This document shows positions 1,481 to 60,159 of a stretch of 64,000 nucleotides of DNA, piece by piece. The stretch comes from Thermophilibacter provencensis (GTDB lineage: Bacteria; Actinomycetota; Coriobacteriia; Coriobacteriales; Atopobiaceae): assembly GCF_030372065.1 (NCBI RefSeq), contig NZ_JAUDEA010000001.1:186001-250000 (forward strand). Reading direction: 5' to 3'. Positions within the stretch are counted from its first letter, which is position 1; the number at the start of each line of letters is the position of its first letter. The notes beneath the pieces were generated by a model that was not told the origin of the DNA, made no database searches, and saw only the letters and a program-made list of their open reading frames with translations. A program made the translations under genes and the position numbers.

Positions 1481-1972
1481 CTACCTGCCCGCGAAGAGGC
1501 CAAAGGCATCGGCGATGGCGTCGCGCGGACACTTGGTGGCGCACATGCCGCACGAGATGCAGAGCGCGTGGTCAATGCGCGCGCAGCCGTCCGCCACTCG
1601 GATGGCGCCCACGGGGCAGGCGCGCTCGCACATGCCGCAGCCAATGCAACTCGTGGCACAGACCTTGCGCGCCACGGGGCCCGGGTCGGGGTTCACGCAG
1701 CGCACGGCGATGCGCTGGTCGGGGTCGATCATCTCAATCACGCCCCGTGGGCAGGAGCGCGCGCAGAGGCCGCAGCCGCGACAGGCCTCGCGGTCCACGA
1801 CGGCAACGCCGCGCTCGCCGATGCTCACGGCGCCAAAGCGGCAGGCCTCGACGCAGGCCCCGCAGCCAACGCAGCCGTGCTCGCAGCACGGCCCGCCCTC
1901 GGTCGCGGGAGTTCCGCCGCCGCAGCGCACAAAGGCCACGGGACGCGGCTTGCGCGAGCGCTTCTCTCCCAT
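1481..1972 (-). CDS. Polyferredoxin with four [4Fe-4S] motifs
   Basis: Small electron carrier of 163 residues. Four CxxCxxC...C motifs are visible in order: CVGCGACVEAC, CRGCGLCARSC, CIGCGMCERAC and CISCGMCATKC, most followed by the usual Pro or Arg-Phe. No membrane segment or signal is present, so it should be cytosolic. It lies between ygfK and the xanthine dehydrogenase, which suggests it carries electrons between the molybdenum hydroxylase and the YgfK flavoprotein; that role is inference from position. The ATG is behind GGGGAGAGAC. RnfB-like ferredoxins have a similar cluster layout but carry an extra domain not seen here. Confidence 0.85.
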   Translation of the reverse strand: MGEKRSRKPRPVAFVRCGGGTPATEGGPCCEHGCVGCGACVEACRFGAVSIGERGVAVVDREACRGCGLCARSCPRGVIEMIDPDQRIAVRCVNPDPGPVARKVCATSCIGCGMCERACPVGAIRVADGCARIDHALCISCGMCATKCPRDAIADAFGLFAGR

Positions 1973-2030
1973 GTCTCTCCCCTCTTTCCCTCAAGCCCGC
2001 AGGCTCTTATCGCCGTCCACCGCATCAGCC

Positions 2031-2063
2031 GTGTCCACTTTGTACCGGGCACAAAGTGGACAC
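2031..2063. repeat. 13-bp perfect inverted repeat between ygfK and the polyferredoxin gene
   Basis: Arms GTGTCCACTTTGT and ACAAAGTGGACAC are perfect complements around the loop ACCGGGC. It lies in the 104-bp gap inside the purine run. No T-run follows on either strand, so it is not a classical intrinsic terminator. A degenerate relative (CCACTTTGTACCGGGTAC) occurs near 32067, so this is a dispersed hairpin, grouped here with family A. Confidence 0.8.
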
Positions 2064-2076
2064 GGCGGGCTGGTCG

Positions 2077-5073
2077 TTACTTGGCGAGCAGGTACGTGTA
2101 GTTGTCGCGGACGGCGCAGATGGTGAGGCGCACGTCCTCGGGAAGGCCGCAGGCGGCGTCGCTCACGTCATAGACGCCCTCGCCGGAGGCGAGGCGCACG
2201 CGGAACGTACCATCGGGCAGCGGCAGGAAGCCGTGGTTCTCGCTCGCGTCCATGTCCTCGGCGCTCCAGAAGAGCGTGAGCTTGTCCTTGTAGGGACGGC
2301 CGCTCCACGGGCAGAAGACGGCGCAGTTGCCGCACTCGTTGCACATGCCGTCCACGTGAACGACCTGCTGCTGGGCGAGGCCGGGTACCTTGATCGCCAC
2401 GTTGGCGCGGTTGGGGCAGACGTCGCAGCAGACCTCGCAGACGGTCGCGCAGCCCAGGCAGCGGCTCGTCGTGCAGCCGGCCACGTCAAGGCAGATCTCG
2501 CCCTTGCGCGCCATGATGGCGTCGAGCTTGTCGGCGCGGACGTTCTTCTCGGCATAGGCGTTGAAGTCAACGCCGGCCAGGTCGCGGGCCACGGCCTGCG
2601 CGTCGGCGATGGCCTCCACAAAGGTGGCGGGGCCTCGGCGGCAGTCGCCGGCGGCCCAGACGTGGTCCACGCCGGTGGCGGTGCCGGCCGGGCGGCCGCG
2701 ACGGTCAACCTCGACGCCGGCGCCCTCGTAGAGCCCGCGCTCGATCTGCTCGCCCACGGCGCAGATGACGGCCGTCGCGGGAACCTGCGCGGTCTCGCCG
2801 GTGGGCTCGGGGCGACGGCGGCCGGAGCCGTCGGGCTCGCCGAGGCGCATGACGTCACAGGTGAGGACGCCGCCCTCCACGGCCTTGGGGGCAAGGAGCT
2901 CCATCAGCTCCACGCCCTCCTCGAGGGCAAGCTGCAGCTCCTCCTCGTCCGCCGGCATCTCCTTCTTGGTGCGACGGTAGACGATACGCACGTTCTCAAC
3001 GCCCGCGGAGCGCTTTGCCACGCGCGCGGCGTCCATGGCGGTGTTGCCCGCGCCCACGATCACGACGTCGGTGCCGAGCTCCATGGGCTCGCCGGCCTTC
3101 TCCGCCCTCAGGAAGTCCAGGACGTCGATCTCCTCGCCGCGCTCGAGGCCCACACGGCCCGGCGCCCAGGCACCCGTGGCCACCACCACATCCGTGAAGC
3201 CCTCGTCGAAGAGCTGCCGGACGCTCGTGACCTCGCGGCCCATCTGAACCTGCGCACCAAAGGCGAGGCAGAGGGCAACGTCATGGTCGATGTCCTCGTG
3301 GGAGATGCGGAACTCGGGGATGACGTGGCGCGCCACGCCGCCGAGACTGTCCGTGCGCTCGATGATCGTGACCCTGGCGCCGGCGCGCGTGAGGAAGAAC
3401 GCCGTGGCAAGGCCGGCCGGGCCGCCGCCGATCACGGCGACGTTCTTGTTGGCCGCCGCGGCGCTCTTGGCGGGGCCGGCGGCGCGGAGCTTGGCCACGA
3501 CCTCCTCGAAGCCGCCGCGCGCGGCGTCAAGCTTGTGGCCGCGGATGCGGGCACCGTCGGGCTCGTAGAAGCTGCGCTCGCACTTGGCCCCGCAGGGGTG
3601 CGGGCAGAGGTTGCCGGTGATGTGCGGCAGGGCGTTGCGCTCCACGATGATCTGGAGCGCCTCGGCGAACTTGCCCTCGTCAACGCGGGAGAGGTAGGCC
3701 GGGATGTCCTGCTGGATGGGGCAGCCGGAACGGCACGGCGCCGTGAAGCAGCTCATGAGCGGGAGCTCGGCGTCGATCTTGTGCGGCTTGGCCGGCTTGA
3801 TGGGCTTGCGGTAGTCCTTGCCGGAGGCAACGCGGGCGGCAAGCTCGGTCACGGCGTCCACGTCAACGACCTCGGAGCGCGGCGCGCCGGCAAGAAGGCC
3901 GGCGATCTGGTAGAAGCGCTCGTAGCCGCCGGGCTTGAGGACGTTGGTCGCCATGGTGATGGGCCAGATGCCGGCCGCGTAGAGGTCGCGGATGTTGCGG
4001 GCGTCCGCGCCGCCGGAGTAGGAGATGCGCAGGCGGCCGTCAAACTGGCGGGAGATGCGGCGCGCGAGCTCAACCGTGAGCGGGAAGAGCGAGCGGCCGG
4101 ACATGTACATCTCCTCGCTCGGCAGCTCGCCGCGGGTCACGTCCACCGGGAAGGTGTTCGTGAGCTTGACGCCAAACGCGAGGCCCTTCTCGTCGCAGAG
4201 CTTGATCAGGCGCTCGAACATGGGCACGGCGTCTGCCCACTGCAGGTCCTCGCGGAAGTGCGTGTCGTCGAAGGCGATGTAGTCAAAGCCGAGCTCGTTC
4301 AGGCGCTCGCGCGCGAAGTCGTAGCCCAGGAGCGTGGGGTTGCACTTAATGTAGGTGTTCACGCCCTTCTCGGTGATGAGGTAGGTGGCGATGCGCTCGA
4401 TCTCGTCGGGCGGGCAGCCGTGGAGCGTGGACTCGGTGACGGAGTTGGAGATCTGCGGAGAGACGGAGTTCACAAAGTCGGCGTCCACGTTCTGGAAGCG
4501 GTCGAGGTTGGCGAGCGCCCAGTCGCGGCACTCCGCCCAGACCTCGCTCCCGGAGGCGTCCTTCATGCCCTCGATGTACCTGTCGACCTTCTCGGACTTG
4601 ATGCCGTCGAGGCTGTAGCCCACGGACATGTTGAAGACAAAGCCGTCCGGGTCGCCGAGGCCGTACTCGCGGGCGATGAGCTTGCAGGCCCACCAGGCCT
4701 TGACGTACTCGGCAAAGGCCTGCGGGACGGTGAGCTCGGTGGACCACTCGCAGTTGTAGCACTCGTCCTCGGCCACGATGCAGGGCTTGTTCACGCAGGC
4801 GGAGAGCTCCTCGCCGTCCATGACCTGGACGGTCTTGAGCTCAAAGAAGCGCGAGCCGGCCACGTAGGACGCAATGATGTTCTGCGCGAGCTGGGTGTTG
4901 GGGCCGGCGGCGGGGCCAAAGGGCGTCTCGATCCTCTCCTCGAAGATCCTCTCGGCGCCGCCCTTGTGGACGTAGGCCTTGCGCACCCCAAAGATGCTGC
5001 CCTGGGTCTCGTGCTCGGTCAGCACCCAATCCATGACCTGGGCAAACGGAATCGGCCTCATGACGTCGCTCAT
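2077..5073 (-). CDS. ygfK: YgfK-type multidomain iron-sulfur flavoprotein (putative selenate reductase subunit)
   Basis: Large 998-residue oxidoreductase of the Se-linked purine cluster (TIGR03315 type). A TIM-barrel-like N-terminal half is followed by a GltD-like module: cysteines CRSGCPIQQD near residue 446, an FAD site GGGPAGLA near 550, and an NAD(P) site GAGNTAMDAA near 675. The C-terminus has Cys-rich Fe-S segments (CLGCATVCEVCCDVC near 870-890, CNECGNCAVFC near 910-920). It probably passes electrons between NAD(P)H and the molybdenum hydroxylase; the name selenate reductase comes from homologues and is not demonstrated here. The start is taken at the ATG behind GGAGAGGAGCAACA, eight codons inside the longest frame. 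Confidence 0.88.
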   Translation of the reverse strand: MSDVMRPIPFAQVMDWVLTEHETQGSIFGVRKAYVHKGGAERIFEERIETPFGPAAGPNTQLAQNIIASYVAGSRFFELKTVQVMDGEELSACVNKPCIVAEDECYNCEWSTELTVPQAFAEYVKAWWACKLIAREYGLGDPDGFVFNMSVGYSLDGIKSEKVDRYIEGMKDASGSEVWAECRDWALANLDRFQNVDADFVNSVSPQISNSVTESTLHGCPPDEIERIATYLITEKGVNTYIKCNPTLLGYDFARERLNELGFDYIAFDDTHFREDLQWADAVPMFERLIKLCDEKGLAFGVKLTNTFPVDVTRGELPSEEMYMSGRSLFPLTVELARRISRQFDGRLRISYSGGADARNIRDLYAAGIWPITMATNVLKPGGYERFYQIAGLLAGAPRSEVVDVDAVTELAARVASGKDYRKPIKPAKPHKIDAELPLMSCFTAPCRSGCPIQQDIPAYLSRVDEGKFAEALQIIVERNALPHITGNLCPHPCGAKCERSFYEPDGARIRGHKLDAARGGFEEVVAKLRAAGPAKSAAAANKNVAVIGGGPAGLATAFFLTRAGARVTIIERTDSLGGVARHVIPEFRISHEDIDHDVALCLAFGAQVQMGREVTSVRQLFDEGFTDVVVATGAWAPGRVGLERGEEIDVLDFLRAEKAGEPMELGTDVVIVGAGNTAMDAARVAKRSAGVENVRIVYRRTKKEMPADEEELQLALEEGVELMELLAPKAVEGGVLTCDVMRLGEPDGSGRRRPEPTGETAQVPATAVICAVGEQIERGLYEGAGVEVDRRGRPAGTATGVDHVWAAGDCRRGPATFVEAIADAQAVARDLAGVDFNAYAEKNVRADKLDAIMARKGEICLDVAGCTTSRCLGCATVCEVCCDVCPNRANVAIKVPGLAQQQVVHVDGMCNECGNCAVFCPWSGRPYKDKLTLFWSAEDMDASENHGFLPLPDGTFRVRLASGEGVYDVSDAACGLPEDVRLTICAVRDNYTYLLAK

Positions 5074-8747: not shown

Positions 8748-8823
8748 CGTGCTCCCCTCGCGCCGCGTGGCCCCTCGGCTCGGCAGTCTATCAGGTTCGT
8801 ACGGCACAGTTGCCGAGAAGAAC

Positions 8824-8994
8824 GGGCACTCCGCGGACGGTTTGGACCGGAAAAACGTCCACAGGCCGCCCGCACCTCAAACACGGGCAAGTTCCGGACG
8901 GTCTGGACCATCGGAACGTCCACAAGCTGCCCGTACTTTATGTAGGGGCAGGTTCCGGACTGTCTGGCGACAAGAACCGTCCGAATGTTGCCCC
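8824..8994. repeat. Family D palindromes, three units
   Basis: Three ~48-bp imperfect palindromes at 8824-8871, 8885-8932 and 8945-8994, spaced about 60 bp. Each has an outer GGGCA...TGCCC-type pair and an inner core GGAC(G/T)GT(T/C)TGG ... AACGTCC or AACCGTCC. Further copies lie at 33.9-34.1 kb and 43.3 kb. They are between the YitT gene and the 3' end of gatB, with no gene in this stretch. Confidence 0.75.
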
Positions 8995-31731: not shown

Positions 31732-31849
31732 GCTGTCCCTCTCCCCAAGGTTTAGGCAGTTGCGTCTCTCCCAGCTGACCTGGTCTTTGCCCCCACACCC
31801 GCGCACTGGAGACGTCGCTTGCGGCGCCGCGGCGCCTCCACTCTTGCCC

Positions 31850-32026
31850 CTCTCGCCCGCGAGGCCGGATGCCTCATGCGTATGACGGGCGGTACGACTT
31901 ACCTCTAGGACGAGCCATGATCGCTCGGGCGCGCACGCCCGGGCTTACGTGGATCCCTTTGCCCTCGTCTGGCATGGACTTGGGCAACGCGCAGCATCGC
32001 CCGCAACCACAGACCTGGTCGAGACT
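31850..32026 (-). ncRNA. Candidate raiA-motif structured RNA
   Basis: The 365-bp gap between comF and the lipoprotein gene has no good gene but folds well on the minus strand. A hairpin GCCCGGGCG-TGCG-CGCCCGAGC (31944-31923) lies inside a GACGAG/CTCGTC helix (31969-31964 with 31914-31909); further 3' CGCCCG pairs with CGGGCG around a GAGGC/GCCTC hairpin. A -10-like TATACT precedes the first base. Known raiA-motif RNAs of Firmicutes and Actinobacteria lie between comFC and raiA/hpf, which is the setting here except that a lipoprotein gene intervenes. No covariance model was run. Confidence 0.5.
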
Positions 32027-32096: not shown

Positions 32097-32828
32097 CTAC
32101 CACACGCGAGCCAGGACGCAGGCGGTCACGGACGCGGCGCCCCGGGCGAGAAGCGCACCCGTCGCCTCGTTGAGCGACGCCCCGGTGGTGGCAACGTCAT
32201 CGAGCAGCAGCAGGCGCGCGCCACGGACGTCCTCGCAGGTGCGCATGGTTCCGGCGAGGTTTGCCGCGCGGTCCTCCTTTCCCAGATCGCGCTGGTCTCG
32301 GGCGGCTCCGCGGACGAGCACGTCGGCGAGCGGGAGCCCGGACATGCCGGCGAGCTCGCGCGAGACGAGCTCCATGTGGTCAAAGCCGCGCCGTGCGTAG
32401 GCGCTTGCGGTAGCGGGAACAAAGCAGATGCCGTCAACGTCTGCCGCCGAGAAGCGCGGCGCGTCGTCGGGCGCCGGCCAGGCGGAGGCCTCCTCGAGCG
32501 CCGTGAGCATGACCGCCGCCATCACGGGGGCCAGGCGCAGCTCGTGGGCGTCCTTGAGGCAGGTGACCATGCGGGCGGCGGTGCCGCGAAAGCCCAGTGC
32601 GGCGACCGTGGCGCGCGGCGTCCAGGTGCCGTCGCACTCCGTGCAGGTGAGAAAGCCGTACGGCGCGCCGCAGACCGGGCACGCCAGGCGCTGCTCAACC
32701 CACGGGAGCGCGGCGCGGCACTCGTCGCAGATAAGCTCGCCGGGCTGGTCGCAGCTCACACAGCGCGTGGGCCAGAGGACCTCCGCAAGCTCGCCCGCCG
32801 CGGCGCGGGCAAGACGTTCGATGCGCAT
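32097..32828 (-). CDS. comFC: ComF family phosphoribosyltransferase-like protein
   Basis: 243 residues. Two zinc-ribbon Cys pairs (CVSCDQPGELICDEC, CPVCGAPYGFLTCTEC) precede a PRTase fold with the PRPP loop RLLLLDDVATTGASLNEA near the C-terminus. ComFC helps take in transforming DNA in competent bacteria, but many non-competent species keep it. The ATG follows GGAAGGGGGTCGC and TACACT (32873-32878) is a possible -10. No comFA gene is in the window. Confidence 0.88.
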   Translation of the reverse strand: MRIERLARAAAGELAEVLWPTRCVSCDQPGELICDECRAALPWVEQRLACPVCGAPYGFLTCTECDGTWTPRATVAALGFRGTAARMVTCLKDAHELRLAPVMAAVMLTALEEASAWPAPDDAPRFSAADVDGICFVPATASAYARRGFDHMELVSRELAGMSGLPLADVLVRGAARDQRDLGKEDRAANLAGTMRTCEDVRGARLLLLDDVATTGASLNEATGALLARGAASVTACVLARVW

Positions 32829-32914
32829 GCGACCCCCTTCCTGTGGCGGATGGGGGTCGCGTAGGTGGAACGAGTGTAGCACGCGGGGTGCACGGGATAC
32901 GAGTGGAGCGACGT

Positions 32915-33253
32915 GCCGAGAAAAACCGGCTGCTGTACCAGGCCGCGCCGACCCTTGGATCAGTGCGCCGAGAAAACCCGGCCGCTGTACCACTTTCCCG
33001 AAGGCGCGCCGAGAGAATCCGTCCTCTGTACACCGCGCGGGTCCCCCCGGACAGCCGCCCCCGTCACAGAGGGCCGTTTTTCTCGGCAGCGGGGCCGGCA
33101 AGTTGGTACAGTCGGCGGCATTTCTCGGCGTGAGAGCGAGCGGATGGTACACTCGGCGGCATTTCTCGGCAACGCACGAGGCGCACCGGTACAGAGGCGG
33201 GTATTTCTCGGCGTGCCATTGCAAGAGTGGTACAGAGGACGGGTTTTCTCGGC
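32915..33253. repeat. Family B array: eight 26-nt units with 41-42 bp period
   Basis: Three forward units (starts 32915, 32967, 33008; GCCGAGAAAA ... CTGTACCA) face five inverted units (starts ~33062, 33104, 33145, 33187, 33228; TGGTACAG ... TTTCTCGGC). Starts are 41-42 bp apart except one 52-bp step, so 26-nt units alternate with ~15-nt unique spacers. No cas gene is near, and units are degenerate in the middle. The array fills the gap between comF and the next plus-strand gene. Confidence 0.85.
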
Positions 33254-33330
33254 AACGGTGGGCTCGGAGCACAGGGAGGGCCCCGGCAGCGCCGTGCTAC
33301 CATGCGAGAAAGTCGACGAGAGGAGCGGGC

Positions 33331-33894
33331 ATGCAGGCAGAGGGTCACCGCGCGGCGCTCATAAACGCCGACCCACCGGCAAGCGAGAAAATCACCCGCT
33401 GCCTGCTCGACGACCTCGCCGAGGCGTTGCCCGTCTACGCGCGCCTGGCAGACGTCAGCGTCCCGGAGCTCTTCCAGGCACCGCCCGACAAGAACCTCCC
33501 CCGCTGCGACGCGGCGCTTCTCGCCTACGCCCTTCAAGACCCCGCCCCTGCGCACGATGCCGCAACAAGAATCGCACCCGGGACGCGCGTCTATGCCCTC
33601 ACGCACCTCGAGGGCCGTGCGGGCACCGAGGCGGCAACGTCCTTCTCGCAGCTTGAGGCGCTCTGCGAGGCGGCGGGCGCACGCTGGATGGGAGGCCTCG
33701 TTGTCTGCGGCGACGAGCTGGTGCTCCCCGCGGCGGGCTCCCCGCGCATGGGATGGAGGCGCCGCTGGGTCTCCGAGCCCCTTGACCAGCTCATCATTGC
33801 CCTTCTCGCCGGCACGGACGCCGGCACCCTCACAGCCCGGCCCGGAGCGCTCCTCTGGACGTGCCGGCACATCTTCCCTGGCCGACGGAGCTAG
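33331..33894 (+). CDS. Hypothetical protein, weakly flavodoxin-like
   Basis: 187 residues, no signal or membrane helix. The ATG follows AGAGGAGCGGGC with TACCAT further upstream as a possible -10. The second half (SFSQLEALCEAAGARWMGGL, then VVCGDE) is reminiscent of NAD(P)H-dependent FMN reductase/flavodoxin-fold proteins, but the flavin loop is not evident. I do not recognise the family with confidence. Confidence 0.55.
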   Translation: MQAEGHRAALINADPPASEKITRCLLDDLAEALPVYARLADVSVPELFQAPPDKNLPRCDAALLAYALQDPAPAHDAATRIAPGTRVYALTHLEGRAGTEAATSFSQLEALCEAAGARWMGGLVVCGDELVLPAAGSPRMGWRRRWVSEPLDQLIIALLAGTDAGTLTARPGALLWTCRHIFPGRRS

Positions 33895-33910: not shown

Positions 33911-34082
33911 ACGGACAACACACGGACGTTCTGCGGGCAGAGACCGTCTAGAACTCGCCCCAGCGAGAAGAACGGGCGGGGTGTGGACGTTCTGGAGACC
34001 CAAACCGTCCACACCCCGCCCCATTTTTGGAAGCGGGCGGCTCCCGGACGTTTTAGCCCGGAAACCGTCCGATTGTTGCCCC
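33911..34082. repeat. Family D palindromes, three units
   Basis: Units at about 33911-33961, 33974-34022 and 34033-34082. The middle one has long complementary arms (GGGCGGGGTGTGGACG with CGTCCACACCCCGCCC) that differ from those at 8.8 kb, while the inner GGACGTTCTGG ... AACCGTCC is kept. They fill the convergent gap between the hypothetical gene and tatD. Confidence 0.7.
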
Positions 34083-45249: not shown

Positions 45250-45295
45250 TCGATTTCTCCTCCTTTCTGCGGGTAGCTCGATTCCGTTCGTTTGT

Positions 45296-45311
45296 GCTAA
45301 AGCGCTTTAGC
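45296..45311. promoter_or_regulatory. LacI-type operator upstream of rbsK
   Basis: GCTAAAGCGCTTTAGC, a perfect 16-bp palindrome with the central CG seen in many LacI-family operators, 46 bp upstream of the rbsK start. The adjacent LacI gene is a truncated remnant without its DNA-binding domain, so the local repressor is probably lost unless a paralogue binds. Confidence 0.75.
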
Positions 45312-45393
45312 GTACGAGCGGGCGAACGGTGCGCTTGGCTCCGCGAGCGGTGGTGAGGCCTTCTCGCCTCGGCGTCCTCCTCGCCGCCTCCCT

Positions 45394-45555
45394 GCCGAGA
45401 AAACCCTGGGACTGCACCCCACCTGGCCACGATGTGCGCACTAAATGCGCCCTCTGTGCCAAGGACAGGCCCCTAGGTGCATTCACGCTGGTACAGAGTC
45501 AGGTTTTTCTCGGCGCGTGTTCTGGATTTTGGTACAGAGACAGCATTCTCTCGGC
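45394..45555. repeat. Family B units (one forward, two inverted)
   Basis: Forward unit 45394-45420 (GCCGAGAAAACCC ... ) and inverted units starting at 45489 and 45530, exactly 41 bp apart (TGGTACAGAG ... CTCGGC). Part of a ~590-bp gene-free stretch between rbsK and the PSP1 gene. Confidence 0.75.
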
Positions 45556-49331: not shown

Positions 49332-49486
49332 GGTTTTGGGCAAAAGATTTGATGCGTAGCGGCCCCCAGCATCAATTGTTTTGCCCAAAACCAGGAGAAA
49401 CAGCGCACGACCGAGAAAACCCGCAGGTCGCAATTACGCACAAGCTCAATCGGGCCCATGCGATATAAAAGGTTTTGCCCAAAACC
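49332..49486. repeat. Family C units: one inverted pair plus one more
   Basis: Forward 49332-49355 (GGTTTTGGGCAAAAGA...GATGC) and inverted 49369-49392 form 24-nt arms with two mismatches around a 13-nt loop; another inverted unit is at 49461-49486 (CGATATAAAAGGTTTTGCCC). They lie in the ~490-bp gene-free gap between tmk and the GH2 gene, otherwise unremarkable. Confidence 0.75.
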
Positions 49487-58786: not shown

Positions 58787-59084
58787 GCCGAGTAAAGCCG
58801 GCCTCTGTACCACTTTCTCGTGATCGCGCCGAGAAAAGATGGGGGCTGTACCAGAGCCCGCGCTCCCTTGCCGAAAAAAGCCGGAGGCTGCACCACCCCA
58901 TGGGCCTCGTGCCGATAAAACCCGGGGGCTGTACCGTCAGCTGCCGATAAAACCCGGTGGGCTGTACCGTCTTGCTGGCACCAGAGCCGTCCCGCCGGGG
59001 CCTTAAACCAGCGGCGATGGTACAGAGGGCGATTTTTCTCGGCGCACTTTCCAGAAACTGGTACAGAGGCGGGGTTTTCTCGGC
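58787..59084. repeat. Family B array: five forward and two inverted units
   Basis: Forward units start at 58787, 58828, 58870, 58911 and 58943 (GCCGAGAAAA or GCCGATAAAA ... CTGTACC); inverted units start at 59018 and 59059. Steps are 41, 42, 41 and 32, then 41 bp. Same unit and period as at 32.9-33.25 kb. It occupies the convergent gap between the small hypothetical gene and yebC. Confidence 0.85.
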
Positions 59085-60083: not shown

Positions 60084-60159
60084 GCCGAGAAAAGCCGTCG
60101 GGTGTACCGGATTCGGGGAGGCGCGCCGGGAATTGGTACAGCCGGCGGCTTTTCTCGGC
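60084..60159. repeat. Family B unit pair
   Basis: Forward unit 60084-60109 (GCCGAGAAAAGCCGTC...) and inverted unit starting 60134 (TGGTACAG...TTTTCTCGGC), between yebC and the ECF S-component gene. Confidence 0.75.

Follow-up and report, generated by a model that had tools for sequence, protein, structure and literature searches.

Tandem repeats bound by one protein, SopB, form the centromere sopC, where they run in one direction at one plasmid locus, and the ends of Mu and of inverted repeat/direct repeat (IR/DR) transposons each hold several transposase sites. Clustered regularly interspaced short palindromic repeats (CRISPR) are near-identical, have one orientation and are separated by regular spacers of ~25-40 bp. 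The sopC repeat of plasmid F is given as 43 bp in a title cited in PMC9499535. In PMC10201428, Tn7-like ends are described in which each end has several TnsB sites, the effect of their spacing recurs every ~10 bp and one of the ends contains an IHF site, and PMC4331003 describes ~70 palindromic Noc sites scattered over the chromosome and absent from the terminus region. According to PMC8049555 and PMC3116915, repetitive extragenic palindromic (REP) sequences and REPINs form populations of intergenic repeats that are maintained over time in bacteria. Here we analyse arrays of a short repeated unit, called family B, in Thermophilibacter provencensis. The window, that is the whole analysed stretch of 64,000 nucleotides (C1:186001-250000 of the 2.23-Mb draft genome G000), holds four of these arrays, the first of them at 32915..33253.

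Like sopC, the arrays are tandem repeats of about four helical turns; unlike it, they consist of two opposed rows with random spacers and occupy many chromosomal loci. They are scattered over the chromosome as are the sites of Noc and SlmA in nucleoid occlusion, but differ from Noc sites in having asymmetric units set in arrays and no significant origin-to-terminus trend (in genome G028). The palindromic site of ParB, Noc and SlmA was not found, the unit being asymmetric. REP/REPIN sequences with their RAYT transposase are intergenic repeat populations too, from which the arrays differ by the non-palindromic unit and the whole-turn spacing. In contrast to Tn7-like ends and those of CRISPR-associated transposons (CAST), there is neither cargo nor transposase between the rows, only the sites are shared, and the loci are inherited. 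CRISPR was rejected, as in the preliminary description of this DNA, since the units are degenerate and stand in two orientations, with spacers mostly of 14-15 nt. For each of four readings (CRISPR, REP/RAYT, ParB/Noc-type sites, a regulon), at least one of the features tested was absent. That description knew of no element with this plan, and our search of the literature on Olsenella and Atopobiaceae likewise found no description of such arrays.

A repeated unit, its helical phasing, an orientation rule, contacts that change slowly beside fast-changing cores and spacers, and a unit sequence that is replaced from one species to another are observed. We give about an even chance to the reading that the arrays are assembly sites of one or more putative, cooperatively binding proteins with a chromosome-level role, whose specificity shifts between species.

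Unit sequence and abundance

All 20 units listed for the window in the preliminary description were recovered at their positions (8 + 3 + 7 + 2 over the four arrays), the one at 58943-58968 with a core one base longer. The pattern GTACAS-N9-TTTCTCGGC, with at most one mismatch, occurs at 101 + 106 sites in G000 versus 0 for the reversed-pattern control, and with at most three mismatches at 484 versus 120. A weight matrix was applied to the window and to 22 stretches of G000, fetched round the listed clusters (~253 kb in all), and gave 236 units versus one in the reversed control. The matrix of these 236 units, YGGTACAG-nnnnnn-G-n-TTTTCTCGGC-R, has nearly fixed inner and outer blocks and a weakly biased core; it is asymmetric and thus not a palindrome. 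We are half persuaded that the unit is a putative binding site, asymmetric and bipartite, of 26-27 bp, with an inner YGGTACAG, a weakly constrained core and an outer TTTTCTCGGCR.

Pattern counts were made in 31 genomes of the genus. Near-exact units (at most one mismatch) number 207 in G000, 309 in G022 and 345 in G025; the other 28 genomes contain 14 (G009), 12 (G026), 9 (G004) or, for the remainder, 0-3. At least 35 arrays with two or more units are present in G000, as counted in the window, the 22 stretches and two further ones, and the relatives that bear the unit are uncultured Olsenella and Candidatus Olsenella pullicola (Atopobiaceae). Draft contigs frequently terminate inside or just past an array (L065, L066, L067, L070, L076-L078, L081, L082, L084, L085), so the array number in short-read genomes may be under-counted. 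Ten of 65 stretches were from unrelated bacteria, with a single site in each; these, and one match apiece of the family-B unit in five viral contigs, were taken as chance. Array 1 had no match in phage and plasmid collections, nor did the units of G028 and G002 in viral contigs. Carriage by phages, plasmids or viruses was rejected, given the unmatched array 1 and the chance level of the viral unit matches.

Intergenic, species-specific repeat populations are also what REP-like repeats, or bacterial interspersed mosaic elements (BIME), spread by a RAYT (Y1) transposase would produce, and Y1_Tnp was found in eight of the 10 genomes searched, with three copies in G000. However, the units are not palindromes, Y1_Tnp is absent from the array-bearing G002 and G005 (both 99% complete), and neither a fixed helical spacing nor conservation in place would be expected of such repeats. 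This origin is very improbable.

Helical spacing and orientation

Among 165 same-strand steps in the window and the 22 stretches, 141 are 41 or 42 bp, 13 are 31/32 bp and seven are 51-54 bp, the remaining four being 38, 62, 84 and 151 bp. This bears out the 41-42 bp period first proposed; a genome-wide spacing distribution lacking that peak, which the preliminary description had named as the result that would count against it, was not what we saw. When G000, G025 and G022 were pooled, the best period was 10.50 bp for 399 same-strand steps. The 69 of these that are not 41/42 bp gave 10.45 bp (R 0.845, p ~4e-22), as did 61 steps that cross the array centre (R 0.922, phase ~1.6 bp). Steps lie near whole turns both within a row (31/32, 41/42, 52, 62, 83) and across the centre (43, 54, 64, 75, 86, 96), and a few are off whole turns, e.g. 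38, 46 and 51. Phasing at three, four, five and more turns, and across the centre as well, supports the earlier suggestion that proteins, if bound to the units, would line up on one DNA face.

Regarding orientation, reverse units precede forward ones on the + strand in 117/117 arrays from seven genomes at a stricter cut-off, 113 of which hold both orientations; the opposite order had first been proposed and has to be corrected. No forward-then-reverse neighbours occur among the 460 steps (399 + 61) of G000, G025 and G022. A looser scan returned three such neighbours, in L054 (with a weak unit), L075 and L091, and only that in L091 joins two good units. Rows contain 1 to ~10 units.

The spacers, previously described as unrelated, are not entirely so. 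Those of 14 nt share a weak CGnnTTCCnGAAA-like bias that the 15-nt spacers lack and are richer in AT (AT fraction in G000 0.45 vs 0.27, p 7e-12; G025 and G022 show the same trend). Spacer length may offset sequence-dependent twist.

Mirrored rows could also be transcribed into long hairpin RNAs, in which opposite rows could pair unit by unit. Yet in 64 arrays the similarity of mirror-image cores (0.505 ± 0.013) barely exceeds that of other core pairs from opposite rows (0.482 ± 0.006), no Rfam family reached its gathering score in arrays of the five sources searched, and the 10.45-bp period is a property of DNA, which makes an RNA explanation scarcely credible. The region 32800-33400 showed no promoter-like match and one terminator-like match, against a shuffle mean of 0.4.

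The cleanest form and its centre

The layout is cleanest in G028 and G030, where 19/19 and 10/10 examined arrays, respectively, have two reverse and two forward units. Of their 58 unit steps, 56 measure 40 bp, one 39 bp and one 41 bp. The step across the centre measures 127-129 bp except in three of the 29 arrays, two with 118 bp and one with 138 bp. An asymmetric AT-rich centre motif stands at offset 5-6 in 26 of the 29 arrays, 13 per orientation, with L275 as a poor-scoring case; its log-likelihood is 558, versus at most 279 for one shuffled set. An array of G008 with another unit has a similar centre (score 16.7, above 99.9% of 765 background windows), and in G005 one array reached the 99th percentile while the other was negative. 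The motif is absent from the tested centres of G000, G025, G022 and G002, the best being L032 at the 95th percentile. Several G002 centres terminate in ..TACCTGG and contain copies of the 9-mer GGCGAGAAG. Bending of the array centre by HU or IHF could be suggested.

Conservation in place

At nine of the ten sampled G030 array loci, the orthologous G028 locus also carries an array. In these nine pairs, compared with a contact-position matrix trained in part on the same loci, the contacts differ at 61/647 positions (9%), against about 50% of the variable unit positions (130/252) and of the spacers (197/412); the counts are 351/831 for the centre and 514/2694 for the flanks, which are partly coding. 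Deleted positions, the only indels counted, number 0-3 in seven arrays and 10-11 in two. For family B, six of 16 locus pairs were alignable through the array, with differences at 69/818 contact, 92/338 core, 175/724 spacer and 84/1049 flank positions. This conservation of the contacts, while spacers and cores are free to change, supports protein binding. No clean empty site was seen in the orthologous pairs compared. A separate case is L034, where an HNH_2 endonuclease gene and a gene of no assigned family (1957-3423) adjoin the array; this locus, array included, is ~93% identical between G000 and G025, a closer match than at most of the other loci examined.

The same plan with other units

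Arrays of the same plan with other units were found in related genomes. At the locus of array 2, beside a PSP1-domain gene, arrays are also present in G025, G010, G002 and G020, the last three with other units, and G009 has a degraded array. L101, the G010 interval matching array 2, contains two adjoining arrays with different units (TGGGAC... and CTACCCACGG...), hence one genome can carry more than one unit family. The gene pair round array 4 also encloses arrays in G028 (L261) and G030 (L294), there with another unit family. The intervals with differing families across species, as a raw list without correction for interval length, are those of the PSP1 gene and of array 4 together with L038/L222, L081/L278, L088/L228/L282 and L213/L221.

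Sites of the G002 unit number 74 in G002 itself and 0-1 per genome elsewhere, and those of the G010 unit 26 in G010, four in G029 (one array) and 0-3 in the others. A third unit, common to G028 and G030, occurs at 57 and 59 sites, respectively (at most three mismatches; controls 2 and 5), and at nine and six sites in G005 and G008 (controls 6 and 5). Motif-free scans of 100 kb each showed candidate arrays in G028, G005, G008 and G004; those of G004 include two or more additional types of unit. Further versions of the unit are found in two species of another Atopobiaceae genus, g24 (G075 and G076), with 20 and 34 sites (at most two mismatches) and 0-2 elsewhere in 140 genomes; these arrays have 42- and 31-bp steps. 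When the G000, G002 and G010 matrices are aligned by their outer end, a common T-rich block followed by ..GCR appears. Thus, unit families are largely species-private while the layout stays. Hundreds of sites per genome with contacts that are fixed amid drift, in a unit that nevertheless differs by species, imply that the function is strong and the protein quick to change.

At a strict setting, 100 kb from each of several other genera gave no arrays in G058, G071, G086, G052 and G032 and one array region in G075; as the G028 sample has an array that was overlooked at this setting, the empty results are weak evidence. Related-looking repeats of the CAGACTGCGCTTTTCCGTGAGG type, at intervals of ~31-42 bp, were observed in genus g21 (G071, L240 19094-19545), with forward copies preceding reverse ones.

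Since the layout works like Tn7-like ends, a transposase-derived factor is the main rival: the arrays would be gene-less left and right ends resembling miniature inverted-repeat transposable elements (MITE), or the sites of a domesticated transposase (Tn7-like, Mu-like or IR/DR). Polar sites in helical register, several to each end, were indeed found, the opposed polar rows and the AT-rich, possibly bent module resemble such ends, and species-private families, with one G010-family array in G029, would suit cognate enzymes. Nevertheless, spacers, cores and most centres are not common to the arrays of one genome, unlike copies of an element, and the shared terminal and internal sequence of a MITE or transposon was not found, with the G028/G030 centre motif as a partial exception. 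G028 and G030 have inherited 9/10 sampled array loci in common, with contacts conserved in place, row length varies from one to ~10 units, and, apart from two isolated cases (an rve protein and a Mutator-type protein), no transposase family was found among the array neighbours. We regard a transposase as rather unlikely.

Genomic setting

Genes round the arrays were predicted with our own simple caller, which is the basis of the neighbour orientations and distances. Orientation was divergent in 28, convergent in 19 and co-directional in 67 of the 114 arrays scored (of 120, nine genomes), and the arrays have no gene-orientation preference. Gene starts lie at a median distance of 130 bp from the array, gene ends at 45 bp; distances below 50 bp were seen for 9/123 starts versus 54/105 ends. 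This promoter-length distance from gene starts, together with several arrays between divergent genes, would fit operators of a global transcription regulator, clustered upstream of its regulon. What speaks against it is that 19 of the 114 scored arrays lie between convergent genes, that the neighbours (63 + 73 proteins scanned with Pfam) have no enriched family or pathway in common, and that loci shared by species with different units adjoin ordinary genes. Sites upstream of a coherent gene set were not found, and such a regulator seems quite improbable.

The neighbours at L212, L034, L203 and L201 comprise RNase H, PolA, a phosphotransferase system (PTS) component, HNH_2, YaaA, TerB, SpoU, peptide deformylase and unknowns. 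HTH_3 was present in three of the 73 neighbours, one of them in L283, and the ParB_N counts gave no lead to a cognate protein. No Cas family was in the top lists of the neighbour Pfam scans, in which no search aimed at Cas was made. The largest gap between arrays in G028 (396 kb) spans the point opposite dnaA and the second (313 kb) spans dnaA.

Proposed mechanism

A cooperative protein assembly remains our preferred explanation. According to it, the two polar rows, set back to back round a dyad, would bring the proteins of successive units onto one DNA face. A dedicated host protein, or a small family with private specificities, would bind the units cooperatively. At a few tens of intergenic loci on each chromosome, this would yield a compact nucleoprotein complex, its centre being bent in some species. 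The complex would organise or anchor the chromosome rather than regulate particular neighbours, a role favoured by loci that are scattered, inherited and neighbour-blind. The specificity of the protein would shift from species to species, and the sites would follow.

Several points weigh against this proposal. The chromosome-level role is a best guess, drawn from the scatter of the loci and the absent neighbour bias. The 19 arrays of G028 show no significant origin-to-terminus trend (Kolmogorov-Smirnov p 0.27), hence no positional signature of a known organiser, and no recurring candidate for the cognate protein was found among the array neighbours. As far as sampled, the distribution of the arrays in the family is patchy. 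In the pair L079/L076, the contacts do not change more slowly (12/97, vs 4/42 in the core and 9/89 in the spacer), and at some G000/G025 loci the flanks are 90-93% identical and the arrays unalignable, so whole rows can turn over. Finally, contacts could in principle be conserved because arrays copy units from one another, although cores and spacers would then be copied too.

Arrays and other features of the window

Array 1 (32915..33253) has three reverse and five forward units and lies between a ComF-like gene on the - strand, with Pribosyltran and DZR_2 domains, and a + strand gene without Pfam match. Its reverse units are at 32915..32939 and 32967..32991 (0 mismatches each) and 33008..33032 (2 mismatches); the forward ones are at 33063..33087 (2), 33105..33129 (0), 33146..33170 (1), 33188..33212 (0) and 33229..33253 (0). 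A raiA RNA (RF03072, 144 bits) is located close to it, at 31766-32023 on the - strand.

Array 2 (45394..45555), flanked by a PfkB-family gene and the PSP1-domain gene (both -), consists of the reverse unit 45394..45418 (1 mismatch) and the forward units 45490..45514 (0) and 45531..45555 (1). Upstream of the PfkB-family gene, at ~45295-45325, there is a palindrome, GCTAAAGCGCTTTAGC, which is kept in G009 and G010 and resembles a LacI-type operator.

Five reverse and two forward units form array 3 (58787..59084). The reverse ones are found at 58787..58811 (1 mismatch), 58828..58852 (0), 58870..58894 (2), 58911..58935 (1) and 58943..58968 (1; the unit with the longer core), and both forward ones, 59019..59043 and 59060..59084, have 0 mismatches. 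Array 4 (60084..60159) is a single reverse unit, 60084..60108 (1 mismatch), followed by a single forward unit, 60135..60159 (0); the gene on its left presumably encodes YebC, which its translation resembles.

Other repeats were also observed in the window. The 9-mer mentioned above for G002 centres occurs 45 times in 1-64000 on both strands, versus 0.8 expected from base composition, with 34 copies inside called genes, 11 outside and frequent inverted pairs; it resembles a DNA-uptake or terminator word, and codon preference may be part of the cause. A long intergenic stretch (49367-49484) repeats GTTTTGCCCAAAACC at a distance of 94 bp. Furthermore, tandem imperfect palindromes of the type GGACGKTYTGG ... 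AACCGTCC, with a 61-bp period, form a separate family at 8822-8990 and 33923-34070, with similar copies in L107 and L110; the three Y1_Tnp genes of G000 might belong to it.

Significance

It is possible, if somewhat less than evenly probable, that the arrays belong to an undescribed chromosome-wide nucleoprotein system of Atopobiaceae, in which the layout and the outer skeleton (T-rich block, ..GCR) persist while the recognition sequence is rewritten between species, partly at the same loci. The rules for unit, spacing and orientation are now exact enough for in vitro tests. If the factor is a domesticated transposase, it would represent a new route from end-binding to host function, and if it organises the chromosome, it would be a new class beside ParB, Noc, SlmA and MatP. 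Should the rewriting of the recognition sequence prove true, this family would offer a parallel, among bacteria, to fast-evolving centromere or PRDM9-type recognition, with a not-yet-named protein family as the reader.
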